Shown piece by piece: positions 15,201 through 64,000 of a stretch of DNA of 64,000 nucleotides. Numbering within the stretch: the first letter of the stretch is position 1; each line of letters begins with the position of its first letter. Source of the stretch: Plumapathes pennacea. Taxonomy: Eukaryota > Cnidaria > Anthozoa > Antipatharia > Myriopathidae. The stretch lies in the NCBI GenBank assembly GCA_964036295.1, contig OZ038465.1:2303115-2367114 (forward strand). The letters run 5' to 3'. The translations under genes were made by a program, and so were the position numbers. The notes beneath the pieces are model-generated. The model saw only the letters and a list, made by a program, of their open reading frames with translations, searched no databases and had not been told where the DNA came from.

Positions 15201-17180
15201 GGCTATTTCTTTCGTCATACGCACCGCGCCTCGGTTTCATGTACCTGACGTACGGCGTTCTCTTCGGGACTGGAACGAGTCTTTGTTGCACCATGGCTTT
15301 AATAGTTTGCGGAGATTATTTCAACCAAAACGTGGCCTTGGCAATTGGTTTTGTTGGTTCTGGCGGTAGTCTCGGCACTGTAGCCCTCCCGCCAACTATT
15401 GAGATTTTAGTCGACACATTCGGGTGGAGGGTAGCGTTAAGAATCGTGGGGGTAGCCGGTATTGTTCTGGCACTTCTAGGGTTCGTATATCCTTCTAAGC
15501 CGCGGTCACAACTTCATGAAGGTCAGGGGAACAGGATGTTCAACTTTAAGGTGCTCAAGAACAAGGCTTTCCTGCTGTGGACCTGTGCAACAGCTATCAG
15601 TGGTTTTGGATATTTCATTCCTCACTTCTTCCTGGTAAGTATACTTGAAAAAAATTACGACCTGATAAGTATACTCGTAGAGCTGCCGGTGATGTATTTC
15701 AAAGTGCTTGATGTATTTCGTATTGGACCCAAACTCGAGAAATCGAGTCATGAAAATACATGAAACTTATTTGGTTTAATGACAAGCCATGTTTTGTAAC
15801 GATCTTGAGTTTAGGTTTAGGTTTCGAAATGAAAGAACTAAAATCTCACTTAAACATTCTGCAACGACAACGTGAACGTTGCTAATGGATGGCGTTGGAT
15901 GGCATTTGAGAGAAGTTGGGGTTTTCTAGCCATTTAGTCAAATTTATGGTGAAAAGTTTAACATATTACTCGTCCAAATGGACGGCGGGAGGAATGCTGC
16001 TGAAAAACTTATTTCAGTTATTTCGTTTCTTGTGTCTTCCCCATTTTTGCCTTACTTGTTTCTTTCATCGTCGAAACCTGCTCTAGGCCCTTGTAGCCGT
16101 GGCGTTATCACTCTTTTCATCCCTGGTTATACGTACTTTTTCTACTTCAACTAATTTCTTCCACACTCCTACCTTTGTAAGCAGCAGCGGCCGCTAGACA
16201 TGCCGACATGCGCAGACATGGATTCTAACTCGTTGCCTCCATTTCAGGTTCGGTACGCAGAAGACATAGGCATACCGCTGTCCCAAGGTAGCTGGCTCAT
16301 CTCCTACCTGGGCATTGCATCCGCGGTTGGTCGACTACTTTTCGGAAAATTGTCAGATTTATGTTGTCAGAAAAATATTCAAATCTACCGCGCGTGCATG
16401 CTGCTTTCGGGAACAGCCTCATTGCTATGTCCTTTGGCTAGTTCCTATGGCACTCTGATCCTTTATGTGGTGGTACTGGGGCTGTTGGATGGCTCATATA
16501 TCGGACTTATGTCTATAGTGACTATGGACATAGTGGGACTAGACAACATTTGCCCCGCTTGGGGCATCCTCTTTTTTTGTCAATCATTTTTTTATTTGCT
16601 TGGACCTCCAGCTGCAGGTAAGAAAACAAAAAACATTTTTTATACCAATGTTTTTGGTCCGTAGTTAATTTTTCTATTTTTGTTCCTTGTTTATTAATGC
16701 ATTAATTTATCTGCAGGGCTTTGGGGGGGGGGGGGGGAGGGGGGGGGGGAGAAACTGCAGCAAAAGGAAAAGGATTTAGTAAGCACCTCAAGCGGCGGAA
16801 CGGAATGTAGATGATGATAGTGTGTGTGGCCTTGATGCTGAAACTGTTTTAGTGATGGTGCAAGTGATTTCTGAACGCTGTTTTGTATTGAACTGCTTTA
16901 ACAGTTTCGTTCCTTCGTCTTTGCAGGTATGATGTATGATAACTTGAATACATTCAAGCATGTGTTCTACCTGGCTGCAGGTACCATGTTTCTCGGAGCC
17001 TTGTCTCTTTTCTTTATCCCCTGTATCAAGCGGGATGACCAGTCATCGATTGCAGAGGAGCCTTCAGACACTGTGAACATCGGCAAACCATCGGCGACCC
17101 TTCTTGTTCCGACTATTGTCATTAGCACTGAAATGCTGAGCCATCCGAATGAGGTGGAGGAACGTTTAACGTGTTTGTAG
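12233..17180 (+). CDS. SLC16 family transporter (monocarboxylate-transporter-like), complete
   Basis: Major-facilitator membrane protein of 480 residues, in the normal size range for SLC16. Exons are 12233-12497, 15081-15634, 16248-16617 and 16927-17180, with phases 1, 0 and 1 that all match. After a cytosolic N-terminus with a basic RPSRRRRQDG stretch, the first membrane segment starts DGFLAWG, the counterpart of the SLC16 DGGWGW signature. Hydrophobic segments then alternate as expected for 12 helices. The helix 8 loop contains GRLLFGKLSD, an MFS motif. The C-terminus is hydrophilic and acidic. Family members move lactate, pyruvate, aromatic amino acids or thyroid hormone with or without protons; the substrate cannot be read from sequence, so no symbol is given. 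AATAAA signals occur at 17614 and 17721. Intron 1 carries two palindrome-rich repeats. Confidence 0.88.
13110..13415. repeat. Inverted repeat built from ACCGGT palindromes
   Basis: Inner arms GTTTTCTGTTTACATGATACC and the complement of AAACCGTTTACAGAAAC pair at about 13167 and 13337. More diverged outer arms extend to about 13110 and 13415. ACCGGTT/AACCGGT recurs roughly every 30-50 bases on both sides of the centre. No open frame of interest. Confidence 0.6.
13655..14010. repeat. Repeat element with iterated CCAACATCG words
   Basis: Begins with GGCCCGACCAAACGAAT and contains repeated forms of CCAACATCGTCCAACAT and its complement, plus further CCAAACGA/CTAAACGA words. It resembles the 30321-30753 element in having a CCAAACGA end sequence and iterated short internal words. 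The right boundary is not clear. Confidence 0.5.
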
Positions 17181-22039: not shown

Positions 22040-25000
22040 ATGGAGGCAGAAGGTGAAACTGCAACTGCTGTGGGCTGCTCGTCTGAGACAGTGAGTTTAT
22101 TGTATGTGTTCTTCTAGAAATATTCTAAAATGCAATCAATCAATCAATAACCTTTATTTATACACGATTACAAACTTTCAGCAAAACGCTGGTGGGGTCG
22201 TGTCTTCTATCTAAAATCTACATATTAAATTATCTATCGAGTGTCGTTATCCTACAGACTCGCTCCCGTCATTCACCTAACTCTTTACTTTACTTTTGCA
22301 CTTTAGTCACTCACTTTACTACCTAACTTACATCATTACTTACACCTTACGTACATTTGACTACCTCGACCCCCCCCCTCCCCCCACCATCCCCACGCGC
22401 ATCCGCTCACATACACACACACGCACGCACACGCATACACACTATTATAATTAAAAGTAAGTAAATTTCTTATCTTTAAAAGTTATCATGCATGCTTCTT
22501 TTTTAAAACTAAAATCATTCAGGGGTAATGCTCTAACGCGTCTCTTAAAGTTAGACCTGTCACTCATGCTCTTGTATTCATTTGGGAGTGAGTTCCAGAT
22601 GATGGTTGCCCTGTATCGTATGGTGTTTCTGTCGAATTCCGTTTTCGGCGTCGGTATTTCGAGCGCCTGTGCGCTTCGGAGTGAATGGTTCATGGTTCTT
22701 TTGGCAAACATGTCTTTGATGCTCGCTGGTGTGTTCTTGTCATGTACCGCTCTATGTGCTAATAAGAGCAGTTTCCTCTTGTACACGGCGTTTAATGTTT
22801 GCCATCCCGCGGTGTTTAAGGCCTTAGACGTTTCTGTGTCCCAGGGTTGACGGTAAATGACCCTTGCGGCTCTTGCGTGCAGCCTCTCTATTTTGTCTAA
22901 GTGCTTTTTATCACAGGAGCTCCAGAGGATTTGACCATATAGCACAGATGGTAGTATGACTTTTGTGTAGAATTCCACTAGGGCATCCCGTGGAAGGAAA
23001 TTCATTCTGTTGAGTAGGGCTAATTTGCCTGCGTAAGCCTTCTGTAGGTCGGTGAGATGTTTGACCCAGCTTAGTTTGCTATCAAGTGTAACGCCTACTA
23101 GTCTTGTAAATGTGACCCACTTGACAGTTTCTTTGCCGATTCGGAGTTGCTGAAGTGGGCCAATGAAATTCTGCTTGTGTATCAACATAGCTTCGCACTT
23201 CTTTGGGTGGATAGTCAGTTTTGCTTTGTTGCTCCATTTGTGTAGTTCATCCAGCGCTCGGTTCAGCTGAGTGACAGCTAAATCAGCTGTCTTTGCTACA
23301 CAGTACAAGGTTGTATCGTCAGCGTATAGGTATATGGTGCCGGAAGCAACATCGTTAGGTAGATCTGAGGTAAAGAGCGAAAACAGCAGCGGGCCGAGAA
23401 CTGATCCCTGAGGAACTCCGTATGTTACGTCAGCGTATTCTGAGACCTCTCCGTTTATCTGGGTGTATTGTTTTCTGTTTGTTAGATAGTTCTCGATCCA
23501 GTAGTAGAGGTCTCCTGTAATCCCGAATGATTGCAGCTTTTTCAGGAGAATGTTGTGTGATATCGTAATGCAAGTGCACATGCTTGCCGCTAGCTATAAG
23601 TTTTGTTTCTATATTAAATTTTTGTATGCATTTAAGTACGCCCCAGGGTGTAAACCGAGTTTATTCACACGTGAAATTGTTATCAGTTATGACATCGATT
23701 GCACGATTCACTAAAAATTCGAAGAGTGTTGGGAGAGAGAGAGAGAGAGGCTAGGGGGTGGGGGGAGGGGGTGGTTGGAGGGAGTGGATTATTTGTGAGC
23801 CAATCCTGACTCTATTGCTTCATTTGTAATATTAAAGTATTTTATCCTCAGGCAATGGCAGGCAAGGCCAGTGTCTGTGAAGGTTGCCCTGGTCAAGCCC
23901 TTTGTAGTCAACAAGGTAACCAAACCTTTTGAGAGGGAAAGGGTTGGGGGCAAGGGGCAGACAGGTGAAAATATAGAAGTGATTAAGTATGGAAATAAAA
24001 TATGGCAGGAGTATTTCAGGTTTCATCCATAAAAATTCAGTTATCTGCACTTCCATGTAATATCCTATCTATAATATTTATCATCATATACCTGCCAACT
24101 CTCACGCCTACAGGTCGAAAACTTTGATCTCACACCATCTCATGCCTGTGGACCAATTTCTCAAGCCTGGCTGGCTATACAGCCTCAACTGACACACTTA
24201 TGAAAAATATGCAATTTCCAACCAGTGCGAGAAAAGAAAAGTCCATGTATCCCCAAATTCTCTGATTTTGTTTAAAGGAAAGGCACTGGGGACCAGGTTG
24301 GGACTGGGACAGGGTAATGCTTAGGGCTGTTTCCGTTTCCGGTACTGTATGCAAATTTGGTCATAAGATATTCCAAAGAATCACGCGCGTCTGGCGGGAA
24401 ACTGTGTGCTGAAACCGCAATTCTGAAAAAACCTCACGCCTTGCGATCAAAAAATGTTGGCAGGTATATCATCAGTGTTTTGTGTATTTTAGGAGGTCCA
24501 GATCCTGACCAAGAAATGATAGATCTAAGGATGAATGCCATTAAACACAAGATTTTGGTTGTGTCAGGTAAAGGAGGTAAGCACTGACACTCATTTGACA
24601 ATCACAATACAATAAACAAGACATGCTGATATCTCTGACTAGAGATTATTCATGCAGTAATAGACTGGTGATCTTTCAAACCTGGATGAATGTGCTGACT
24701 ACAGACATTTTTCTTCTGCTTTTTCAGGGGTTGGTAAATCCACTGTTGCTGCAGCTCTTAGTTTAGCATTGTCACAGATGAGTAAGAAGGTGGGTTGAGC
24801 ACTTCATTTATTCTAACAAACCAGCTGGCTCATGCTTCTGAACATAACAATGCAGAGATTTGTACATAATTATTATGAAATCTAACTGGTAAGTTTTCTG
24901 AGTAAAGATTGTAAATCATGTTGTCTGTAGGTTGGTCTTGTGGATGTTGACATCTGTGGTCCAAGTGTTCCTAAACTGATGAAAGTTGAGGGCAAGGAAG

Positions 25001-40690: not shown

Positions 40691-41126
40691 CTGATTATAA
40701 ATATGTACATTAAAGCGCCTACTTATGGCACAGATTCACATTCAAGCCAGTTGGATGCCATGGCGTTAGCACGACGTGCATTTGTATTTTACAGCGCCGT
40801 CTTTGTCATGTGTTCTGTTGGAGTCTGTTCAACTGAAATAACCAACCAACACCAAACAAAGAGAGAGTTCAAGCGAGACATAACTACAGTAAGTTTAATG
40901 GACCAACAGCTGAGATAGCGAAAACACACTCATGGAGTAAATTAGACCCTTCATAAATCATGCAGCGAAACAAGACTCATTACCAACTTCGACCAGCAGG
41001 AAACTAGAAAACTAGGATCAATAGGAATTTAGCAAGCCTCCAAGAAACTCAGTGAGAATATAGTTTACTCATGTCCTCTGGTGTTTTAGTATAAATCCCG
41101 CAAACCCATCGCCAACCTTACAAGCC

Positions 41127-41362
41127 GGGGGGGGGGGGGGGGGGGGGGGGTACTCCTCAAAATTTTGGGTGGGAGTGTGCCGCCCAGGACTGAAAACCCT
41201 TACCCTATTTCAGACCAAAAATTTGCGGTTTTCGACCCTATTTCAGACTAAAATGCTAAAATCGATACCCTATTTCAGACTAAAATGCTGAAAAGATACC
41301 CTTTGGGGCGGCACATACCTATATGGCTCATATATGGGAGTACCCCCCTCCCCCCCCCCGGG
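41127..41362. mobile_element. MITE with GGGTACTCC ends and 10-bp direct repeat flanks
   Basis: A poly-G left end followed by TACTCC pairs with GGGAGTACCCCCC at the right. CTTACAAGCC occurs immediately on both sides (41117-41126 and 41363-41372), a convincing target-site duplication. The interior repeats ATACCCTATTTCAGACTAAAA-like words. It is the same family as 20505-21001; diverged copies appear near 34510-34690 and 46895-47190. Confidence 0.8.
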
Positions 41363-42358
41363 CTTACAAGCCATCACTGACCGTCCTGGAGTTCGAAAAC
41401 ACAAGTACCGTCGAAGCTCTCGTAGGCGACCACCTCGGGAACTCGAATAAGTGGAGTCATAACTAGAGCTGGTCGCTTGGTCGTTCGCAAGGAGAGCTTC
41501 GACTGTAATTCTAAACTGCTTGTAAACTATTCCTGGCATGCTTTTATATCTTGCACTTATTGTCAACTGCTTCAAGAAAACCTAGTGCTTCTATTTGATT
41601 GAAGGTACGCAAATCGTACGAAACTAAAAGCTCAGGTGACTTACATGCACCGAGCACAGTGGGAATAACCTAAAAGCAATTTTGTTCTTTCCTGTTCCTC
41701 GGACTGATTTATCACAAATACATGGCATGTGGAATCCACGTTGTGGCGCTTGTGAAGGCTTGTTGCAAAGTCTTCTGAGATTAACGAATAACAAGTCAAG
41801 CCGGCTCATTTTGCTCAATTTTCCCACATGGTAATACATGGTTAAACTCTTATATCTTTCGTTTTGGATCGCTGGTTTTCCTTACGGTAAACTGCTTATT
41901 ACATAAAAGTTCTATACAAAAACTATGCACGTTTTCTAAAACGGTTTAATTGGTCTATTCCAAGTTATTCCCGATCCCCACGAGGGTACTAATTCAGATC
42001 TCTATTTCGTTTTTGAATGTAAATCTTGAATTTGTCAAAATTCCTGCGCGAAATCGGATACGGCTTGGCGAAATCAACTGCGATAATCAACAGTCTCGTA
42101 GTGATTTGAACATGATAGTATCTGGCTCTACTAAATCACGGGCGCTTTTGAAACGCAACTACATTTTAACACTTCCAAACTCGTGTGCAGCACTGGGACA
42201 ATCAAGCGTGTCCCCCTGTAGTCTTATACCCCTAACAAGGAAAGCACACGTGTTCATCACGTGTCACTCTATCACTACAAATTTGAACATGTAATCTGTG
42301 AATAAAAATGAATTTGAAAATAGAAAAACTAGAAACACAACAGTCATCATGAACAGTC

Positions 42359-42490
42359 ATGAGCGACAGCAGTTCAGTAGACTCTGATCCGCGAACTAAA
42401 CAGCGCGTGAAAGAGAATCGAGAGCTTCGACAGCAGAAACAGCAAGCCCAAAAAGACAACTCCACAATGGGGAAACTAGTTTCCTTATAA
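42359..42490 (+). CDS. Short charged ORF of unknown status
   Basis: 43-codon ORF beginning MSDSSSVDSDPRTKQ, rich in Lys, Arg, Gln and Glu (ENRELRQQKQQAQK), inside intron 1 of the pseudogene. The composition looks protein-like and coiled-coil-prone rather than random. No family or splice context was identified, so it may be a captured fragment or chance. Confidence 0.2.
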   Translation: MSDSSSVDSDPRTKQRVKENRELRQQKQQAQKDNSTMGKLVSL

Positions 42491-43340
42491 GTTTGATTTC
42501 AAATTAGAATTAACCAAACGAAGACGACTCAGACCGGCCGGTTTACCAACGCGAATCTTTCAATGTAAATTACTTATATTTATTTTAATTTCGGTTCCAG
42601 GCATACCGACAGATCAGTGATAATATAAAAATGGCTGCAAACAATTATATTACTATTTAATGGAGATCTTAATTAAAAATGGACTTTGAAAAATAGTCAC
42701 TTTGGAGGAGAGGTGTATATATAGAGGAGCGGCTCTCTTAGAACGTGGATTGCACTTCGGCGCATTTATTAAACGAGGTTACACACGTCTTTTACTTCTC
42801 AGTTAAGGAAAGATGCCGAACCCGTACAAAACTGTGTATCAGCCAATCACCGAGGATCAAGCGACGAAAAAGAAAGTCAAATAAATAATGATATAAATTA
42901 TTTGGAGATTTATTAAAAATCAATGAATTTGGCAAATAAATATACCTGACAAATTTAGAATTTTGTTAAGAGATCCTTTCATCCTCAATTCTTACCTTTT
43001 ACACATTTGAAGCATTGAATTAAAGCATTGAATTGACTGAGAGCGTCCCTTTAGGCTCGCTCACTCGTTTTTCTCATTTCTTAGTAACCAAAGGTATAGA
43101 GATTCGCTGTGATCCTCACAAAGCAGTGGTTTATCTTCGTCATCCAAGTCGATTTCACCACTTCTGGCCGTACGCTGTGCAGGAGTCTGCTGGCGTCGCA
43201 AGTCTCCGAGATGTCGAAGTTGTTCAGACACACGAAATGAAACTGTTACCTTCTTAGTGCAGGATCTCTCCGTCGGTGGCGTAACGAGGTGCCTTGTCCG
43301 TGTTTCAAACCACACCGAGTGTGCGTGTGTATCCGCAACC

Positions 43341-45628: not shown

Positions 45629-45745
45629 ATGGGAAAAGCACGTGCAATGGTCTACTTTGTCCTCCTTCTCTGGTTTGTCGGAGTCTTCTCATCTGAAAGT
45701 TCCAATGAAGAAAAAACAAAAAGAGACTACAAGCGGGACTTGACA
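45629..45745 (+). CDS. Orphan signal-peptide exon of the cystine-knot family (copy 2)
   Basis: Intact exon 1 of 39 codons ending at a gtaagt donor in phase 0. MGKARAMVYFVLLLWFVGVF forms a signal peptide, followed by EEKTKRDYKRDLT with dibasic processing sites. It matches exon 1 of copies 1 and 3 in length, phase and layout. No exon 2 or 3 was found before copy 3. Sequence near 47790-47990 resembles intron 1 sequence of copy 1 (42010-42240), so a larger unit was once duplicated. The expected exon 2 position is near where the element at 48264-48810 inserted. It may be a truncated copy, or an alternative first exon that splices to copy 3. Confidence 0.5.
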
Positions 45746-48263: not shown

Positions 48264-48810
48264 TACGGAGCCCATTAAGGGCCATGAGGGTACGTTTTTT
48301 TTTTCGAAGTCGCGATCGCGACTTTGAACTTGCGATCGCGACTTTGAACTCGCGATCGCTACTTGAAACTTGAAACTCGCGATCGTATTACGTGTCCCCT
48401 CGTGGTGACTTGCTTCGATGGCATCTACGGAGAAGGTGCGTACGAATTTTCACGAAGGCTTAAACGTATTCCGTGACTCAAAATCAAGAATGCCAGTATT
48501 TCAGCGTAATTCAAACCCAAATGAAAATATCTTCTGATAAGGTCATCCCTTTGAACATTATTTAGCTGAATCGATGGAATGTATGCAGGAAGAACCGCCG
48601 CACAAGACGATAGACAGCTCAATAACACTATACAACAAATGGCTGGCGCCATTTTGAGATAGGAGTTTCTATGTCGCGATCGCAAGTTCAAAGTCGCGAT
48701 CGCGAGTTCTAAGTCGCGATCGCGAGTTCTAAGTAGCGATCGCGAGTTTGAAAGTCGCGATCGCGACTTCGAAAAAAAATGTACCCTCATGGCCCTTAAT
48801 GAGCTCCGTA
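48264..48810. mobile_element. IS3EU-like non-autonomous transposon with GCGATCGC arrays
   Basis: Termini TACGGAGCCCATTAAGGGCC and the complement GGCCCTTAATGAGCTCCGTA are inverted repeats. CAATAA flanks both sides exactly (48258-48263 and 48811-48816), a 6-bp target duplication. TA-Y ends and 6-bp duplications fit my recollection of the IS3EU superfamily. Eight perfect GCGATCGC octamers lie in the two arms (three left, five right) within roughly 20-base units (TCGCGATCGCGACTTTGAAC). On the minus strand a frame encodes MAPAICCIVLLSCLSSCAAV, then DDLIRRYFHLGLNYAEILAF and HGIRLSLR. The latter resembles the N-terminal helix-turn-helix of integrase-like transposases. No catalytic core is present. 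Confidence 0.75.
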
Positions 48811-50079: not shown

Positions 50080-52374
50080 ATGGCGTTAGCACGTGCAATG
50101 GTCTTTTGCGCTGCCTTAGTGTTCTATGCTGGAGCTTGCTCAGCTGAAAAAGCCAATGAAGACCAAGAAAAGAGAGAATTTAAGCGAAGCGTGCGAGTAA
50201 GTATTTAAACAGACATCACTTGGGAAGAGGTCTAACTAGTGCTCCTCTGTCGGTTACTCTACGAACAGTCAACAAAAGTAAAGTGCGCATTTCTATATGA
50301 TATTTCAAAAATACTTTGGACAACTTTAATTTGGCAGCTAAAAATAGCTTCTTCAGAAACACACCACATTTTGAGCGACTGGAGTCCCTGTACGTGAGGT
50401 GAACTTGTTTTGGCACGGTTTTATAGTTTTCACACAAGTGTAAATATTTATCGAGCACGCTATGCCAGCAACCACTTTCCTTCGCGGAACTCCTTAATTG
50501 CATAAGTTTGACCCTGGGCCAGTACTTTCCTCGCCAAAACAAAACCATGCAGTTAGGGATTGGGTGTGAGAAGGAAACGGATCGAGCGCGAAAACTCCGG
50601 ATGCAACGTTTCATGTAGTGAGCCGTCGCCTGACTTACAATTTGAGTCAAGCTCAGGCTTAGTTGGTTTGAAAAAACATTTATTTCAGCTTGCACGCAAC
50701 TTCAAGATTCACTCATTATCCTGCAGTGCAGCGAAACGGAAAATAATGCAAATTACATGCAAATTCCAAAGCTATAAACCGACACGTGTCTCGCTGAGTT
50801 GTTTTCCAGGGGCCGGAACAGCTGTTTTTCTGAGGAAAATAATCAGGGCTTTGACGGGATTTGCATTTATCCGTTACTGGCCGGCCGGTGACGCTCTATC
50901 ACTGATCTCACGAATCCGGACAAACAACGACCAGAAGAACAATTGCGACAAAGACTTTTTATAGACACTGAACAACATGTAAGCACGCGTCTCATTAAGG
51001 TGATGTTACACGAGACAATTTTTAACGACGATTTTTCGCCCAACACCTACAATTTTGTAGCTAGCGCTTTGGCTTTTACTCTAAAAACATGGCGAACCTT
51101 CGCCAAAGCAGAATTTTGTGCAAAGATTGCTATTCATTGATAGTTCGACGATTACTAGGCAAGAAGTATAGAAAAAAAAAAATGTTGCGCAAAAAATCGT
51201 CGTTAAAAATCGTCTCGTGTAACATCACCTTCATGAAAATTGGCTGTATACGCGGGTTATACCGAGCTGCGTGCACTGTGAAACAGCACTGCACGTGCAC
51301 TGTGCTCGGATATGATCGAACAAGCGTCATACTAACGCGCGCCGGTCTGGTCACAGTGAGTGTCACATGTTAGAATGGGTCCGAGGCGTGCCCAATTTTC
51401 GCACGATGCTTCCTCTCCCCAGACCGCGCGCGCTCACTTGGCACTTGCTCGTAATATTATCGACTGTTTTGCAGTCTAGCGCGTGCATACTTAAAATTAC
51501 CACTTTGTGATATGAAGCTTTCCCACTAACAAGACGTTGTGTAAGTGACCTTAATATATCGTAAATCTGTCCTTTCGTATTCCGTAGTTAAGAAGAAATG
51601 CTGGACGCTTTCCGAACTGCGTGTATCAGCCCATAGAGGATCCATGGCCTCACACGAAGTCCAAGCGATCACTGAAAGAACAAAGTAAATAAGCTTATCC
51701 AATATACTGCTTGACGGTATGGAACAAACACAAACAAATTTATAAAGTATCTGCATAACGTTTTCTAGATGCTCCGTGTCGTTTTGACGGCTGCTGAGTC
51801 TTGTAATTTTCAGCGCATTTTGATATTTTCTCCAAAATTCAAAAATTGCTGTAATTTTTGTGCCTACTGCGCATGTCTAGGTAGAAACTATGTTATAATC
51901 TAAAACCGTTAACTTATCGGATAAGAGATCGATCAAATCGATAGCTGTTTGTCGCAACGGTTCGTAGCCAATCACAAAAAACCCTCCTGCAGAGTTTGAT
52001 TTTTTACTTAATTACCTCACAGTAGACACATGTACGCATTGCGGACCTATTTGTTCTCTGAGTTACTGTACTTTTCTTTTTGGTTTTATTTCTTAGTAAC
52101 CAAAGGTATAGAGGTGCGCTGTGCTCCTCACAAAACAGTGATTTATCTTCGTCATCCAAGTCGACATCACCACTTCTGGCCATACGCTGTGCAGCTAAAC
52201 CGCTGTGCAGGAGTTTGCCGTCGCCACAAGTCCCCAAGACTTCAAAGTTGTTCAGACACACGAAATGAAACTGTTTCCTTCTTAGTGCAGGATCTCTCTA
52301 TCGGTGGTGTAAAGAGATGCCTTGTCCGCCTTTCAAGTCACACCGGATGTACGTGTACGACCAAAGGGTGTTAA
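50080..52374 (+). CDS. Secreted PDGF/VEGF-like cystine-knot protein, intact (copy 3)
   Basis: Predicted secreted growth-factor-like protein of 163 residues. Exons are 50080-50196, 51588-51684 and 52097-52374, with phases 0 and 1. Exon 1 encodes a signal peptide (cleavage near GACSA, about residue 22) and a propeptide with dibasic sites (QEKREFKRSVR). Exon 2 adds NCVYQPIEDPWPHTKSKRS, with another dibasic site. Exon 3 holds the knot domain: C80 in RCAPHKTV, C108 and C112 in the ring motif RCAGVC (C-x-G-x-C), C123, and C156/C158 in HTGCTC (C-x-C). These are the six knot cysteines of the PDGF/VEGF fold. The two interchain cysteines are replaced (Tyr101 in WPYAV, Val111 in CAGVC). Extra cysteines are C50, C146 and C163. 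A role as receptor ligand is inferred; a divergent knot family is possible. Intron 1 contains a MITE at 50997-51231. Confidence 0.75.
50997..51231. mobile_element. MITE in intron 1 of the intact cystine-knot gene
   Basis: Near-perfect termini: AAGGTGATGTTACACGAGAC at the left, GTCTCGTGTAACATCACCTT at the right. Pairing extends through TTTTTAACGACGATTTTT. It is 235 bp with no coding content. Target duplication unclear. Confidence 0.85.
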
Positions 52375-53892: not shown

Positions 53893-53901
53893 CAGAAATT
53901 T

Positions 53902-54774
53902 GGGTGTAACGAAAACGAAGACCCCAAACTAAATTAACATAAATTTGCGGGGTCTTCGTTTTCGGTTTTCGGTGGTGGGTGTATCAAAAACGAAGACCCC
54001 AAAGGGAATCGTCCACTTTCCTGTATTTTGCGTGTGGTTTCTCTTGAAGTGATCTGTCTACAGTGTTTTGTCCAGCAAAATTGTGCAAAAGAGTTCTATT
54101 GTTACAACTAATTATGGAAGTAACTTTCCTGTCATTTTAGTCTTCTTGTTACTGTTGTTCGATATGTGCATCATTCGTTCCTACTAAGATTCTAAGCAAT
54201 CATTAAATTTTCACTGTGTCCCTAAAAGGAGCTCTATTGTTACAATATTTCATAGAAGTAACTTTCCTGGCATCTCTGTATTCTTGTTACTGTTGTTCGA
54301 TATGTCTATCGTTCCTTCCTGCTGAGGATCTCCTGAAGAGATTCTTTGCAGTCTGTTTAATATCAAACTTGAAATAAACCGACTCAACGTTTTTAATTTA
54401 CGTTGATTTTCATGTGAACTTGGTTAAATTTGCATTGTCTGGCGCGTGTTGCTTGTGCGCGCGAAAGGTGAGCCGGTCAGCGGTGCTACGCCACAAGTAA
54501 ACAACACGGTAGACAAGCTGACAGCACGATAAGCGCTACAAAACACCGTAGACAGATCACTTCAAGAGAAACCACGCGCAAAATACAGGAAAGTGGACGA
54601 TTCCCTTTGGGGTCTTCGTTTTCGGGGTCTTCGTTTTCGATACACCCACCATCGAAAACCGAAAACGAAGACCCAGAAAACGAAGACCCCGCAAATTTAT
54701 GTTAATTTATTTTGGGGTCTTCGTTTTCTGGGTCTTAGGTCTTCGTTTTCGGGGTCTTCGTTTTCGTTACACCC
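53902..54774. mobile_element. Mutator-like TIR element (873 bp, 9-bp target duplication)
   Basis: Termini GGGTGTAACGAAAACGAAGA and the complement TCTTCGTTTTCGTTACACCC. CAGAAATTT is duplicated exactly on both sides (53893-53901 and 54775-54783), and 9 bp is the usual duplication length of Mutator-like elements. Arms of about 170-250 bp are built from repeated GGGGTCTTCGTTTTC units and pair through GTCCACTTTCCTGTATTTTG. The interior has a diverged tandem duplication of about 140 bases (around 54090 and 54230, sharing GAAGTAACTTTCCTG and TTACTGTTGTTCGATATGT). No transposase. Confidence 0.85.
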
Positions 54775-54783
54775 CAGAAATTT

Positions 54784-56368
54784 CACATAGGTGTGACAAA
54801 ACGCCCAACTTCAGGAGTGGGCCTACGCCCACGTCCGGGACTATGACTCAGGCCGTTGTTTACGTCGGTGCCGGCCCGGTATGGGGGGCTCTCGCGTCAT
54901 TCGCGGTCTGCCTGGTACCCGTTGCAGCTGGGAGAGGAAAGAGGCTGTCTACTGTGATACACAGAATAATAGGGGACCTGCCCTTGTTTCTGTTCTTTCC
55001 CACTTTCTACACCCCTCGTGTCTCGTTCAGTTTGTTAACTGCGCCTTGTCATCCTCCTTCCCAGTCAGGCTTTGTCTGTCTGTCTGTTTATTATGTCTAC
55101 ATTCAGAACAATAGTACTGTAAATTGCTACTTCAGAATAACGTCTGTCATATTTCGCCAAATTTCAATTATTACTTTATCACGTACCAAAGTGAGGTATC
55201 CCAAAAAAGGAAAAGAAAACTGAGATTCGCACGAGGAAGTGACGGCTTGGAATCACAAAACTGCCAGTCTTCGAAACCCCGCTGAAAGAAAATCTTCTCT
55301 GGCACGCGAATTATGACACAGGAGTGTTTTGCGGACACTTCCATTTCCGACACCAGTCATCGCCTTTCAAGACTTTAGTTTTTTTCTTTCAAAAGGAAAC
55401 TTGGTCGTCTGCAATTTATGTTGGCCTGGTTTCAATACGTCTTTAAGTGAAACACGCCATGCAAATGATCCGCTTTCCGTTGTTGTTATTGTTGATAAAG
55501 GTTCGATTTCTGTGTCAACACAAAACATTATGCCGGCCATAATTATTGCTTTCCTCCCATTTCCAGAGTGTATTGCCGATGTCTTGTGGCCTCGCGGCTG
55601 TGTGTTGACCCGTTACTACAAAAACTTCGAAGGCTTTATTGTTCGACTGTCAGCGTTTAATAATAGCCGACGCGTGATGGAGGCCCCCGTGAAGGCCTTG
55701 GATCAGCGAGTTGTTTTGAAAGTAAAACGAAACTACCGATTGACCCGAAGACAAAACCCCCATCTTTTTTACCAGAAGTTCTAGAAATTTGCATTTGAAG
55801 ACGGAAATGAAGGCATCTGTTAATTGTCACAACTTATTTCTCAACATTCCGTGCCGCGATCCGCTTACTAGTCAGCACTAAACTCTTTTTACGTGCGCGT
55901 TTTAGTTATATAACAACATAAATCACAATTTGGGAGAAGAGAAGGGATGAGATGTGGTTTTCAAAATTTGGATGGATAACTTTTTTCAGTGTTGGCCCGT
56001 GTTTGAAAGAAATTAAAACAAGAATGCTCTTAAGTCTGCTCTGAAGTATTTTGATGCAAATTGAGCGGCTTGTCTTTGTTGATGCTCATGTGGTTTGTAT
56101 CGACCAATCACGCGAAACCTTGAGTTAAGTGGACAATGAATCCGTTCCTGCAGAAAAGCAAACAACTGAAGCGTAGAAAGATCAGTATAATTCTTGTGGT
56201 TTTTCGTCCCTGATGCCTGGCCAAAGCGGCCATCAGCAAATCCTTCCGAAAATAATGAGAAGATAATAATGCCTGACTTGCAAGACACCAGTGGTGCGGA
56301 GAGTCACGACAGCAAACGGAGACCGCAACAGTGATTTGAATTTGTAACACGTCCCGCACGAAATCGGA
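54784..56368. other. Upstream region of the celsr gene
   Basis: Contains the presumed promoter and 5' UTR of celsr. A 151-codon open frame at 55329-55784 lacks an early ATG and any domain, and was not called as a gene. Confidence 0.4.
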
Positions 56369-59300
56369 ATGCCATCTCGTAACACCGCTTGGTCTTACGC
56401 CGTCTTCCTTCTCCACATTTTGAGTTTGTTGGAGTGTTCAGTGGACTGCAAGACTCTTCATATCTATCCATTTACACGTCGAGGTGTTGCGGTTCGTGTG
56501 GCAGCCCATGGCCAGACAAATTTCACTTTTGACTTGGCACAGAGTGATGAGCAAGTAACTCAAGTGGTGTCTATTGAACCTCAAAGTGGTGATGTATTCT
56601 TGATAAGCAAACCCACATGCATCGCTCTCCAGAGCAATCCGTTGATTGCGGTCATAAGATCCACCGCTGTTTCTAGACCATCAGAGAGAATTGCGAGACA
56701 ATTGAAGGTTCATTTCGATTATTGCCAGCGACGCCGAAAGCGCGGACTCTTTACGATAATTCCCCGGGATGCCGCTGTTGGGACTCGAGTTTTTCAGCTG
56801 AGAGATGTTATCGCTGTGCCACAAGGCTCTTTAGATGCCGCAGATTTTCGGCTGGTAAATGTTGGCGCAAGGAAGCGTTTTGCGATTGACCGTTCAAGTG
56901 GTTACCTCATTTTGCGCAAGTCTCTGTTGGGATCGAAGGAACATGTTCTGAAAGTCGACTTGGCATATCCGGCGCCTGGGGCCTATCAACAAACTGTCTT
57001 GGCGCGGTTGCGAGTATTTGTGGACCATCGACCTAACTTTGTTGAGAGCAGACGTCGTTTTCGGCGAAAAGCAGCCAGCTTCAGGCCCCCAGTTTTTTCG
57101 GACAGAAGGATGACAGCTAGCGTGCTTGAAGACGCTATCGTTGGCACCACGGTGTTGACAATTTCTGCAAGTGACCCAAACAGTGGCAGAGCTGGAAGCC
57201 TAAAGTATAGCATGTCGCCATCTCAAAACCTGGACAGCAAAAATTACTTCGAAATCAACGCTCTTACAGGAGTCATTAAAACTCTGATGTCTTTAGATCG
57301 CGAAAAAATGGCAACACACCATTTTCGAGTCAGAGCAGAATTTAAAGACTATTCTAATTTGTATGCTCAGTCTGAGTTGTTGATTAATGTTGGTGATGTG
57401 AATGACAACTCTCCAAAATTTGAGCAGCAGTCATACAGCAAGACAGTTCCTGAGGAACTTAGAATTGGTGATCCAGTGCTACAAGTAAGAGCAGTCGATA
57501 AGGATATTGGCATTAATGCAGAGATCCATTACAGTTTTGAACCCCAAAATGTTGCCTTTCGTATTGATGAGACAAGTGGCCTTGTGACCGTTGAAAAAGA
57601 TCTGGACAGAGAGACGGTACCTGAGTACAGACTGAAAGTCAAGGCCGAAGATCGTGGGAACCAACGTAGGAGTGCCACAGTTGATCTTAGGATTGTTCTT
57701 AGTGATGTAAATGATAATCCTCCTGAGTTTAAGGAGCAAAATTATCAGATTACGATACCAGAAGACAAAAGACCTGGTCAGCCTGTATTGACAGTCAGTG
57801 CTACAGATAAAGATCAAGGAAGTAATAGTGACATTTTGTATGATATTGTTGGTGGCAACGACCAGGGCTTGTTCTCTATCAACCGTATCAGTGGAGAGAT
57901 AAAAGTGGCCCAAAACTTGGACTATGAGCACATGCCCCACTACAGTTTGTTGATCAATGCACAAGATAAAGGAAAACCACCTCAATTCAACCAAGCGACA
58001 GTTGAGATTTATCTCACTGATGTTAACGACAATGCCCCACGGTTCATTAGTTCACACTTTCGGACTTCAGTGCAGGAGAGTGTCACTGTGGACACTGTAA
58101 TTTTTAGGGTCATGGCTGGGGATAATGATGGAAATGGTGGAGATGTCAACAGCCAAATTGTCTACAGTATCACAACTTCTGGTGTGCCATTCTCTATTGA
58201 TTCCCAAACGGGTGACATCAAAACAACTCAGAAACTGGACAGAGAGAAAATCTCTTCATTCACCTTTCGTTTGAAGGCAAGGGACAAGGGAACGCCAGCT
58301 AAGGAAGGGTTTAGCCAGATGACAGTCACTTTGATTGATATTAATGACAATCCACCAACCTTTAAAAAATCTGTGTACTATTTGTCAGTTGCTGAAGACT
58401 CTAGCTGGGGCACCACAGTCGTAAAAGTGTCTGCTGAGGATCCAGATGATGGTCCTGACTATGTCTTATATACCATAGAAGGAGATAAGAAACATTGTTT
58501 TCGCATTAATAGCCTGGGTACAGTTACACTAGCCTGCAGACTCAATTACAATCTTGTTAAGCACTATTCCTTTCTAATCAAGGCAAGCGATGGTGTATTG
58601 GACAGTACGGTGGTTGTGTATGTGAATGTCACAGACTCTAACACATACTCACCTGTCTTTAAGATGAGGTCATACAGAGCATTTGTAAAGGAAGATGTTA
58701 AACCTAGATCATTAGTTGTGGAAGTGATTGCAACTGACCAAGACCATGGAACTAATGCAAAGATTTCATATTCATTTGAAAAGGATGTAGCTGACTTCAC
58801 CATCGATTCAGATTCGGGTCAGATAAAAACCAGAGCTTCCCTTGACCGAGAGACTCAGCCAACTTACTCCATTGAAGTTTCGGCAGCTGACCATGGTTCA
58901 CCTGTCAGAAAAGCTAAAGCATTTGTTTACATCACTGTGCAAGATGTAAATGACAATGCTCCATTATTCACAAAGAGAGAGTACACAGCAACTTTAAAAG
59001 AGAACATACCACCTCCCTCAACAGTCATAACTGTTTCAGCCACAGATAAGGACAAGGGGAACAACAAAGCAGTGGAGTATTCACTTTCAAGTAAAGGTGA
59101 GACCTTGCCTACACTTTATGGACCTGAATGTGGGGTTCCTAAGAATCATATTATTTTGTTACTACACAATACAGTGTAACTAATAGGAAATACAGCAATT
59201 GGCCCAAAGAGGACTGTCCATCATGGTCTGTCTCAAAACATGAGATCAGTAGTATAGTAAAATTAGTTCACATGGCAAGAATGTCTCACTATCCTCCACA

Positions 59301-62300
59301 CATTCTATGGAAGCCTATATACTGCTGTATACTGTACAGTTATGTAGTTCCCCTGCAAATAGAACTTTTCATTTCATACCTTGAAGTGTTATTGCAGTTA
59401 CAGGACTTATGATATAAGGCAATGGTCCACTGTACATGTAGTCACAGTTGTGTCCTTTTCATTTCCAGGAAATGTTGATGATGCATTTGAAATTGATAGC
59501 ATCTCTGGAGCAATAAGAACCAGACAAAAACTGGACAGAGAGAAAGTTGCAGAGTACCAACTGACAGTTATAGCAAAAGACAAAGGCACTCCGACACAGC
59601 AATCCTCAACCAAGGTGAAAGTTACAGTCCAAGATGTGTTTGACAGCTCACCAGTGTTTGAAGAGAAAGTTTATATTGCCTTTGTAAAAGAGGATGTGAA
59701 GCTGCACACTCAGATATTGAAAGTCAGTGCAACATCACCTGACCTCAGTCCTCCCACCTTAGTTTATGACTTGGAATTTGATGGTTTACCAGTTTTCTCC
59801 ATTGACCCCAGAAATGGAAAAATTCAAACAAACAGGCCCTTGGACTATGAAATCCAGTCTGAGTACATCTTCAAAGTGCGAGCAACATCTTCACCATACT
59901 TTGGTGAGGCCACTGTGAATGTTACTTTGGTTGACATAAACGACAATTCACCAGTTCTGGAAGATTTCTCCATGCTGATAAATGTTCAAGAGAAAGAGAA
60001 AGACGTCCATTCTGGGAGACGTTACCTAATCCCTGCATATGATCCTGACGTTGCTGATAAACTGACATTCAAGCTGTTGTTTGGGAATGACAGGAACTGG
60101 GTTAATTTAAATTCCACCAGTGGGGAGCTGTACATAAGCCCTACCCTAATAAATACCATGAAACCCCTGACCATTGGTGTGCAAGTGTCAGATGGCACAA
60201 ATTACGACAGTGCAAATGGTTCCATTGTGTTCACGTCCATCACAGAGGAGATGTTGAACAACAGTGTTGTTGTTAGCATGGCTGACATATCTGTTGAGGA
60301 GTTCTTGAACTCTGGGTTCAATAGACTTGTAAAGAGCATTGCCAACGTTGTTCAGTGTGACTCCAGCCAGGTGCTGGTATTTCACATGAAGACTGATGCA
60401 CCACAAGAAGAAGGGTTTGGCAGTAGTACCCTTAAAATCTGGATGGTGATTCGTTTAAAGAACTCAAAAGGTTTGTTCTATGGGTACTTTGATGCGCACT
60501 ATGTGCGTGATGCAATCTATGTGCATTTGAACCACATCTCTCAAGAAACTGGCTTAAAATTGCTGCCTCTGAAAGATGATGTCTGTGTCAAGGAAGTGTG
60601 CAGCTATGGAAATTCCAGGAAAGACTGTGTGTCATACAGAAAGTTTGAAGGAAAGACATATGTTTACAACTCAAGGAAGGTGGTCATTCAGACTGTTGCT
60701 GTAAAGTGGCTCACCAGTTTTCAATGCAGCTGCCCTGTGGATTACCGCAGTGATTCCAGTGAAACATGCAATATCCCAATAAACCTTTGTTACTCGAGTC
60801 CTTGTGGTAATAATGGCAAGTGCATTAGTACAGAGAAGAGTTATGCTTGTCTCTGCAACCGTGGACAAACAGGGGTCAACTGTGAGATAGAGTTAGCAAA
60901 GGATAAGTGTCCCCTGGCACAAAGCAAACCCAGCCACATGGCCGTCAATCCTTGCAGGAATGGTGGCACCTGTGTTGATTCTAAAGGAGGAGGATTTACC
61001 TGCACATGCAAGGAAGACCAACTAACATATACTAAGTTCTGTGAACTGACGACAAGGAGCTTCAATGGAAGCTCTTTTGTAGCATTTTCAGGTATAGTAC
61101 TTGTAGATTATTAAATTGCTCTCCCTTGAATACAACTGTAATTATATACAGTTATGTAATAGTATGTAGCAAAAAATGATATGGCTGCAGGTAGTAGCTA
61201 TAAATTACACTTACCTGACAATACATACAGTACATACTGCAAAAAGAATAATGTAATATGATATGATATTATAATAATAAATACAAAAATATTCCTGAGA
61301 CCAATAAATATTAATAGAACTTTGAGAAAGAAAATCAAGAAATAGTTTGCATCTAGGTTTACTGTGATCAAAAGAACTTGCAACATAAATTAATTAAAAT
61401 ATTGTGAGTTCACAAACTTATAAGTTTTATGAAAATTTTACATTTCTGAATACCAGCTTACCTTAGATAATTGAGATAGCACATACCAGCACATCATAAT
61501 GTAATGAACTTTCTTATTCTTATCAGGGTTATGCAGTGAATACTTCATAATAATACCATGTATCATGCTTTTTCTTGTAGCACTCAAGCAAAGGTGGCGG
61601 CTTCACATCAGGCTAGAGTTTACTACTGTACAACAAAGTGGTCTGCTGTTGTTTAATGGGCGCTATGATCCCAAGCAAGATTTCATTTCCCTGGAGATTG
61701 TTGATGGTCAGGTGCAGTTTACTTTCTCTGCTGGCAATGAAAATAAGGAACATCCTCGGTTGGTGAAAACTAATGTTGAAGGTGGAGTTAGTGATGGAAA
61801 ATGGCACACAGTTTCTGTAGCATTTTTAAATGAGGTAGGTGGAATTTACTTTTATCTCAACAGTAACCAAAGCTTATGTTAACTACAGGGTCAAATAGAA
61901 CTTAGGTCTTTCATTTACATGATTTACATTATACATACAGTTACATGTACTGTGCAATTATGTTAGTTCGCATTGTAGGATGGTACCAGTACATGTATGG
62001 TGGGAGAGATGGGGACTACTTGCTTTATACATACAAATATGCCACATACATTCTCAAATAAGCAGATATTAGATCTACAATATATTACAATAAAATTGTG
62101 AGTGCTCTTTCCTTCCCTCCAAAGGCTGGCATACTGATTGTTGACGACTGTGAAGTTGCTCTTGCTGTTCAATTTAGTACCAGGGAAGGATCTTTTGGCT
62201 GTGCTGCTGCAACTAAACTTCCCACTGGAAGAAGCGGGCTGCAGAGGTAAAATATTCCAATTACTAGTACTACCCAAGATAATATTGAAGATGATGTTCC

Positions 62301-63583
62301 ACCTTCTTTTTAGTTTGATAGTTAAAGTCCTAAATCATGGTCCAATCTTGTTATCTTTCTGCCAGCCTCTCAGGCAACTACACGATATATTTTTTTGTGG
62401 TAAAAATCTTTTTGACGAAATTAATATACGACTGAGTTAATTTTTGCAAAAATCATAATCCAAGACAGATAATTGAAGCTGACCTTAACATTTCGAGCTC
62501 CAGAACATTTTGTTTTCACAACCGACCAGCTAGCGGCAGAAAACGTACTTCCACACAACACAGTTCCGATATCATAACGAGGACACGTACGGCGAAAGGT
62601 GCCGATGATTTTGTTTAGACGTCTTCGTTCGTCCAATTTGATGCATATTTCAGCCGACGGGATTGGATATTAACCTAAGGTGGTGTATAGGTTTTAGAAA
62701 AGTTATCCTTCACAAAGACGGATTTCCCATAAAAAAAGAACTGTTCGGTTCCTGTTGCATTGTGGGTAACCAAGATCAGCAAGCCCACGATCCCACGTGT
62801 CCCTTGTAGCGCCATGTTTTCTTAGAAAATTTCCGAGGCGAAGATATATCCATAAGTCCATTTCTTAAAGCCTGTTTTGCATTTAATGCTAAAGATAATG
62901 ACGTCCGCTCCAATCTAACACGCCAACACGTCTATCAAGTTTGGGGCACCCGAAGAATCATGGGCTTTTTATTTTTTATCGTACGCTTTGAGTGCTGATT
63001 GGCTGAGGTACCCGATGACATAAAAATAACTTAAATTTTCAAAATTTTCCAGTTTTTTTATTTCGGTCATGCAGGAAAGTTTGAGCTCTAGAGTTTTACG
63101 GTGCAGGTCACGTGACCAGTCGTTGCATTAAAAGAGGGTATTTATTCTCTACAGCAGTATTTAAAGCTTTTTAATGTATAATTCCCAGCACTTGCAGGGG
63201 AAAAGAATGCAAGAGAATAATCGAACATAGTTTTTCAGGTTGGACTGAAAACTGCTCGGTCGTGACTCAAAATCTGGTTTTCTGTCTCTCCCATAGATCT
63301 CTTGACCTTAACGGGCCCTTGATGTTCGGCAGCCTGCCACCGTTCTCGTTTGCCTTCCCTGTCAGTCGCCCAGGCTTTGTTGGTTGCATTCGGAACGTCT
63401 TTATTGACCACAGGTTCTACGACCTGGCCTCTCCTATCAGGGACGTCGGGACGGTGGCTGGGTGTCCAGAGATGAGCAACGCCTGTAAGGTTGGACCTTG
63501 CGAACGGGGCAACTGCTCTAACATTTTTAACACTTTCAAGTGCGATTGTCCCCAGGGGTACGGAGGAAGGAAGTGCGAAATCG
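56369..63583 (+). CDS. celsr: CELSR/Flamingo seven-pass cadherin, N-terminal part (continues beyond window)
   Basis: Adhesion GPCR of planar cell polarity at cell contacts. Exons in the window: 56369-59096, 59469-61091, 61581-61834, 62125-62246 and 63297-63583, with phases 1, 1, 0, 2, 1. They encode about 1671 residues. Order: signal peptide (1-27), N-terminal region with RRRKR (121-125), nine cadherin repeats (about 239-1170) with LDRE and DVNDN motifs, a CELSR-type linker, EGF-like modules (about 1281-1343, 1349-1381, 1390-1434), a laminin G domain (about 1436-1625, ending PGFVGCIRNVFID) and another EGF (KVGPCERGNCSN...GRKCEI). This cadherin-EGF-LamG-EGF series is specific to CELSR; Fat proteins have far more cadherin repeats. 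Two inter-repeat linkers lack DxNDN. The remaining EGF/LamG, hormone-receptor, GAIN/GPS and seven-helix parts must lie beyond 64000. The third intron-flanked LamG exon boundary (FLNE/AGILIVDDC) is the least certain join. Confidence 0.9.
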
Positions 63584-64000
63584 GTAAGTAAGGGTCGCAT
63601 TTTGCTTTGCGCGCTTAAATATGTTTTTTCTTGGAATTAACTTTCCATGAACAAAATTGAGCAGAACCCAAGCTTAAAATGTTTAACTTGCGTAGGATTT
63701 TGTCGGCGCTGTAGTGCCTAAGACCCATGACATTCAGGAATTTAAAAAACATAGAGCGCAAAAAATTATGGTTGAGAGATCAAACAGAGTCGACGAAAGT
63801 TTGTTTGGTGGTCACCACCATTAAGTCCAGTTGCGTTGTTTTACATTCACACTGATGGAGTTATCGCGGTTCTCCTCCCAACGCGAGACTTATGTTACAA
63901 TGTAGTCGATTCAGCGGAGAGCGAGTAGAACTGTTCAATTGTCCATTTTCCCTCTTGATTAGTCATGCAGCACACTCTTCAATTAACTGGCAAGACGGTG

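Follow-up and report, generated by a model that had tools for sequence, protein, structure and literature searches.

A predicted short PDGF/VEGF-family gene without the classical interchain cysteines, in a genome with at least 15 loci of this type

Positions 50080-52374 of the window (the whole stretch of DNA analysed, 64,000 nucleotides) hold a gene that, judged from its sequence, is a member of the PDGF/VEGF family. The same evidence yields a predicted gene model and reveals that both cysteines classically joining the two chains are missing, as is a tail after the knot. The gene does not represent a new family; within a known one, it is a slightly unusual member. The reading that we favour, and hold to be probable though not secure, is that it is a lineage-specific short paralogue whose product would be secreted, cut at RLRR42 and/or KSKR66, and act as a six-cysteine-knot ligand of VEGFR/PDGFR type in a dimer without the C2-C4' bridge.

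The predicted gene has three exons (Table 1), with gtaagt and gtaaat as donors and ccgtag and tcttag as acceptors, and in-frame splicing of these exons would give a product of 163 amino acids. This three-exon join had been put forward in a preliminary description made from the letters alone, and as predicted splicing it proved to be in frame, with usable splice sites. Re-translation also agreed with the cysteine list given there, including the three cysteines that had been called extra (Cys50, Cys146 and Cys163); the full product has cysteines at residues 10 and 20 (signal region), 50, 80, 108, 112, 123, 146, 156, 158 and 163. The several dibasic sites are likewise present, one of them being RLRR (residues 39-42), a predicted cleavage site, while KSKR occupies residues 63-66 in exon 2. 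The hydrophobic stretch in exon 1 was judged signal-like by eye, and the intron in front of the knot exon is in phase 1. Independent support for the predicted gene model comes from DNA similarity to two further copies in the window, copies A and B, which tracks the exons. In blastn comparisons, the match to copy A starts precisely at the exon 1 ATG (50080-50187) and, at the knot exon, spans 52088-52356, setting in 9 bases upstream of the exon and stopping 18 bases before the exon does; copy B matches over 50088-50205. Intron 1 also contains a 245-base element (50992-51236) with 54-nt inverted ends (93%).

Table 1. Predicted exons of the intact gene (copy C) and its tandem copies in the window
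Feature	Position	Strand	Description
Gene, exon 1	50080..50196	+	Start codon, signal-like hydrophobic stretch, acidic/dibasic pro-region; ends in phase 0, donor gtaagt
Gene, exon 2	51588..51684	+	RLRR across the exon 1/2 junction, Cys50, KSKR; ends in phase 1
Gene, exon 3	52097..52374	+	Whole PDGF/VEGF cystine-knot domain and stop codon (stop included)
Copy A pseudogene, exon 1	40760..40888	+	Open, donor GTAAGT; 51% amino acid identity to exon 1 of the gene
Copy A pseudogene, exon 2 remnant	42803..42879 (end approximate)	+	Frame lost past the Cys50 equivalent; weak donor GTCAAA
Copy A pseudogene, knot exon	43085..43334	+	16-base deletion breaks the frame; second half runs past the place of the copy C stop
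Copy B, orphan first exon	45629..45745	+	Phase and donor as in exon 1; 42% amino acid identity; signal-like start

The knot exon alone matches the whole PF00341 (PDGF/VEGF) profile (positions 1-82) at 27.8 bits against a cut-off of 27 (E 3.2e-6), and the full-length protein scores 24.9 bits, below this gathering cut-off. The proposal of a PDGF/VEGF-type knot without the two interchain cysteines is supported. When aligned to VEGF-C, the six knot cysteines (Cys80, Cys108, Cys112, Cys123, Cys156 and Cys158) stand in the PDGF/VEGF order C-(n)-C-x-G-x-C-(n)-C-(n)-C-x-C. A phmmer search of the PDB returned VEGF-C and PDGF-A as top matches, both weak (E 0.025-0.03). With a profile of 11 knot exons from the same genome, the window gene among them, 44 distinct PDB sequences were obtained at E<=1. 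The best 42 of these all belong to the VEGF/PDGF/PlGF family (E 2.5e-9 to 8.7e-6) and comprise structures of VEGF-A, -B, -C and -D, VEGF-E, snake VEGF, PlGF and PDGF-A/B; the final two are unrelated and weak. NCBIfam gave no match for the gene and, as expected, none of the 89 stretches that fit a pattern in prokaryote genome contigs was a relative. The six-cysteine PDGF-like spacing occurs once in the six frames of the window. It did not arise in any of 60 first-order Markov copies of the window, and 7 of 20000 shuffled versions of the knot peptide showed it; the test is generous, since the pattern was written with the gene already in view.

The eight-cysteine hallmark of the family is incomplete in this gene, with Ala102 and Val111 at the interchain positions. 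At the second cysteine, the query FWPYAVQLNRC aligns over VEGF-C FKPPCVSVYRC, which places Ala102 opposite the cysteine. The preliminary description had named Val111 for the fourth position, which stands, and Tyr101 for the second, which has to be corrected to Ala102. A published survey of the family presents the eight-cysteine pattern as a hallmark yet counts among the members cnidarian and protostome proteins that do not show it (PMC10328876), and we therefore treat the pattern as variable and not as a reason for exclusion.

Searches of the 290 Mb assembly (24 contigs), with the PF00341 profile, the window knot exon and two paralogue exons as queries, brought the count of PDGF/VEGF-type loci to at least 15, of which two lie in the window, six on contig C5 (9924-9947 kb), five on C6 (5980-6098 kb) and two on C1. 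The window exon found C5 paralogues at E 5.9e-9 and 4.8e-8, and the window gene is not among the six places listed by the PF00341 search at E<=0.001. For this count, C1:29489111 and C1:40038809 were taken as later exons of the two C1 genes, and C5 9924, whose match contains a stop, and C6 6021, with changes of frame, were included as loci although both are probably broken. Left uncounted were C5:8586527 (stop inside, E 0.14) and C4:22553691 (E 0.4) from the 14 matches of the window exon, and C1:15445101 and C1:32411856 (stop inside, E 0.13) from the five matches of another search. Only C1:29488110 keeps both interchain cysteines. The fourth position is without cysteine in 14 of the 15 loci and the second in 13 of the 14 readable ones (the same 13 also being without the fourth), copy A being unreadable there. 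Repeats resembling CX10CXCXC (BR3P) follow the knot in several C5 and C6 genes and in both C1 genes. Three C5 paralogues (L017, C5:9932047-9932283; L012, C5:9935487-9935732; L018, C5:9947615-9947857) have valine in place of the fifth (knot) cysteine and end in C-x-x-x-C, not C-x-C, as if the third knot disulfide had been lost as a pair; this cysteine loss recalls IL-17. Against a paired loss, the fifth cysteine is still present in three other loci with a C-x-x-x-C end, namely C5 9945, C6 6001 and C6 5993.

The intron phase of the paralogues was read with a script that considered pyrimidine-preceded AGs in the 150 bases before ten paralogue knot-exon matches. A phase-1 acceptor was readable in seven of them (C5 9926, 9935 and 9932; C6 6098, 5993 and 5980; C1 29488), 20-35 bases before the start of the match and a few residues before the first knot cysteine, being in most of these exons a choice among candidate AGs. 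At C5 9945 the script returned no acceptor in this range, but a TTGCAG of matching phase is visible in the printed sequence, 20 bases ahead of the match. C5 9947 has a phase-0 site and a stop in frame, and C6 6001 has a phase-1 AG whose place is not comparable, since the first cysteine was not found. Permissive tblastn gave no convincing counterpart of exons 1 and 2 in the fetched C5, C6, C1 and C4 stretches. Exon 2 searched against the genome at E<=10 returned only itself, a weak test that also missed exon 2 of copy A.

A tree of 12 knot sequences from the 15 loci (C5 9924, C6 6021 and C1 40038 being left out) supported two of its nine inner branches, namely the window gene with copy A (95/92) and three C5 genes (99/99), with warnings from the program about long branches and an unsettled bootstrap. 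By BLAST from the window exon, C5 9926 and 9945 rank nearest, and in the reverse search from C5 9926 the genes C6 5993, 6098 and 6001 stand above the window gene. A link to C5 9926/9945 is thus suggested by BLAST rank and a shared cysteine, not by the tree, and the reverse ranking argues against it. These two paralogues (C5 9926460-9926699, minus strand, and 9945353-9945586, plus strand) resemble the gene in that both interchain cysteines are missing, a cysteine stands ten residues before C7, a phase-1 acceptor precedes the knot (visible for 9945 only in the printed sequence) and no full BR3P repeat follows the knot within the knot exon. They differ in that identity is only 34% and 38%, other signal-like exons lie upstream and no counterpart of exon 2 was found there; moreover, C5 9945 ends in C-x-x-x-C, whereas the window gene ends in C-x-C.

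Other families seen in this assembly bear on its host, for which a cnidarian is plausible. C4:5724463-5765292 contains 11 GFP-like matches (L058 holds one copy) in two opposite-facing groups of five and six; these are single open frames, nine of 242-243 codons and two of 183, with 34-35% identity to DsRed over ~100 residues. Their best PDB match is the red fluorescent protein eqFP611 (E 1.9e-15), which we take to be an anemone protein; for a coral with ordinary fluorescent proteins a better match is expected. A homeodomain search gave 65 matches at E<=1e-8, of which the top four are 72-74% identical to Antp, and no bilaterian-like central Hox gene was seen among the 65; an identity to Antp of 90% or more is expected for bilaterian central Hox genes. 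A rough minicollagen query gave one weak match in the genome (E 0.006).

A cysteine exactly ten residues before C7 (Cys156), which is Cys146 in the window gene, is present in 4 of the 11 loci readable by script: the gene itself, its pseudogene, C5 9926 and C5 9945. The other four loci, read by eye, have Ala (C5 9924), Gly (C6 6021), Leu (C1 40038) and Ser (C1 29488) at this position. Because 4 of 11 readable loci have it, Cys146 looks inherited, while Cys163 has no clear counterpart in C5 9926 and C5 9945. The predicted secreted chain contains nine cysteines (50, 80, 108, 112, 123, 146, 156, 158 and 163), an odd number, so that one or more would have no partner in the same chain if Cys50 stays attached; cleavage at KSKR66 would leave eight. 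A new interchain bond is possible in such a protein, and the alternative that survives best is that the lost bridge has been replaced, with Cys146 (partnered by Cys50 or Cys163) linking the chains into a covalent dimer by a new route. The recurrence of the Cys146-type cysteine and the surplus of at least one cysteine would fit this arrangement, but among the eight that remain after a KSKR66 cut, Cys146 and Cys163 could pair within the chain, and the latter is the one without clear counterpart in both C5 genes. We regard a replaced bridge as unlikely, though by no means negligible. In the VEGF geometry that we assume, the Cys146 positions of the two chains would lie far apart, making a Cys146-Cys146' bond unlikely. 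It is also conceivable, if rather doubtful, that the ancestral C2-C4' bridge was lost in one branch, which acquired Cys146 afterwards, in the region of the last strand, to bond between chains with Cys50 or Cys163. If true, a PDGF/VEGF ligand of an expanded, probably cnidarian VEGF family would have exchanged one dimer-locking disulfide for another in the course of evolution.

The window holds a small tandem cluster, consisting of the intact gene (copy C), copy A and the copy B exon. Judged by its reading frames, and barring an assembly error there, copy A (40760-43334) is a pseudogene. At the site of its 16-base deletion, copy C has two 10-base direct repeats, 6 bases apart, from 52185, so that slippage is the likely cause of the deletion. 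The 3' half of copy A alone scores 11.2 bits with PF00341, below the cut-off, and the 5' half gives nothing. For copy B, no clear match to exons 2 and 3 was seen between 45754 and 50079 (background judged by eye); its exon, which is in phase with exon 2 at 51588, may serve the intact gene as an alternative first exon or may be a remnant. The knot exons of copies C and A give a dN/dS of 0.50 overall (Fisher p 0.054), with 1.2 in the first 29 codons (about the first third) and 0.40 in the last 54, each part having few changes; for exon 1 of the gene it is 0.63 against copy A and 0.59 against copy B. These ratios are weak evidence for constraint on the gene. It is improbable, in our judgement, that the locus is decaying and that 50080-52374 is a barely constrained remnant like its neighbours. 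The broken frames in exons 2 and 3 of copy A, the finding of exon 1 only for copy B and the weak signal of an overall dN/dS of 0.50 are all in line with decay, but in the intact copy the start and stop codons, both donors, both acceptors and the six cysteines of the knot are all still in place.

Further features were observed in the window. A ~550-base MITE-like element (48264-48810) is bounded by 39-nt inverted ends that are 95% complementary, and inside it lie arrays of a 20-mer that includes GCGATCGC. In a ~870-base element (53901-54774) the inverted ends are long and GGGGTCTTCGTTTTC repeats are plentiful in them. On the plus strand, 56348-63588 has open stretches encoding cadherin repeats together with EGF and laminin-G domains, perhaps all belonging to one FAT-like cadherin gene. 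MFS transporter exons lie at 15014-16661 (plus strand), a SelR (methionine sulfoxide reductase) exon at 7321-7680 (minus strand) and a retroelement reverse-transcriptase reading frame at 22457-23590 (minus strand).

In the favoured reading of the gene as a short secreted ligand, the signal-like stretch would direct secretion, and a proprotein convertase would cut before the knot at RLRR42 and/or KSKR66, freeing the knot domain (about residues 67-163). By homology, the knot would pair Cys80-Cys123, Cys108-Cys156 and Cys112-Cys158, which we presume to be the VEGF arrangement. Two such domains may form a non-covalent dimer, held without the classical C2-C4' bridge, and serve as ligand of a VEGFR/PDGFR-type receptor tyrosine kinase. 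An AlphaFold model of the knot exon, with three window rows, was unusable (pLDDT 40.6, pTM 0.27). A monomeric or non-signalling PDGF/VEGF domain, for instance a decoy that occupies the receptor without joining two, would be in keeping with the absence of both classical interchain cysteines and of a BR3P motif after the knot. We consider it distinctly improbable, as interchain-cysteine loss is common in invertebrate VEGFs and VEGF-C forms non-covalent dimers too, according to the survey (PMC10328876). Because such VEGF-C dimers exist, the missing cysteines do not imply a monomer, and the "monomeric" of the preliminary description does not follow. Membership of another cystine-knot family (IL-17, glycoprotein hormone, neurotrophin or Spatzle) would accord with the knot-like cysteine order and the missing interchain cysteines typical of vertebrate PDGF/VEGF, but is strongly disfavoured, to the point of being very improbable: Pfam at E<=10, where HMMER filters discard most weak matches, gave only PF00341 and a sub-threshold hit of the full protein to DUF4245 (E 0.038), all PDB profile matches but the two weak unrelated ones fall in the VEGF/PDGF family, and neither Pfam for the window gene nor the PDB profile search at E<=1 returned IL-17 or any other knot family.

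The interest of the genome lies in the range it covers: among at least 15 PDGF/VEGF-type loci, not all of them intact, a single one retains both interchain cysteines and 14 do not, and a knot cysteine, too, is absent from a few; the host, if a cnidarian, has no blood vessels. Such a natural series lends itself to the questions of how complete the disulfide framework of a growth-factor dimer has to be, and of whether a bridge, once lost, can be made good at another place.

Missing interchain cysteines are already known for cnidarians. The survey reports that one or both are frequently lost in cnidarian VEGFs and treats such loss as the normal state in protostomes, with the reservation that artefacts of alignment may account for some of the apparent losses (PMC10328876, Rauniyar et al. 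2023). The same source describes four VEGF-like genes in Hydra vulgaris, BR3P repeats in all but one of 72 surveyed cnidarian VEGF-like proteins, a Hydra protein in which almost nothing extends past the domain, and one or more cnidarian forms that have no C-terminal repeats (PMC10328876). The architecture, which the preliminary description did not recognise as a described family, is therefore not without precedent. With the cnidarian VEGF-C-type proteins, as the survey portrays them, the window gene shares the PDGF/VEGF domain, the frequent loss of interchain cysteines and the presence of several genes per genome, but it stops right after the knot where all but one of them carry BR3P, and Cys146 and Cys163 also set it apart from the surveyed proteins (PMC10328876). 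No C-x(9-12)-C-x-C-x-C was found in an open stretch in any frame of the window. The less usual features of the gene are this lack of a BR3P tail and Cys146, ten residues before Cys156. No description of the gene or of a Cys146-type cysteine was found in the open-access literature searched and, as far as that search reaches, the short form with a shared Cys146 is a modest variant.

Human PDGF-A and PDGF-B share the knot pattern and the WP-x-x-V-x-x-x-RC motif with the window gene, and PDGF-A has a dibasic K-R-S site at a comparable place before the domain, the phmmer alignment passing through KRS. Unlike the gene, both retain the interchain cysteines, and the similarity is weak (E 0.03 and 0.12). 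The gene also resembles the mammalian PDGFs, as the survey presents them, in having no BR3P (PMC10328876). Likened by their description in the survey, Drosophila PVF-2 and C. elegans PVF-1 resemble the window gene in that one or both of their interchain cysteines are missing (PMC10328876).
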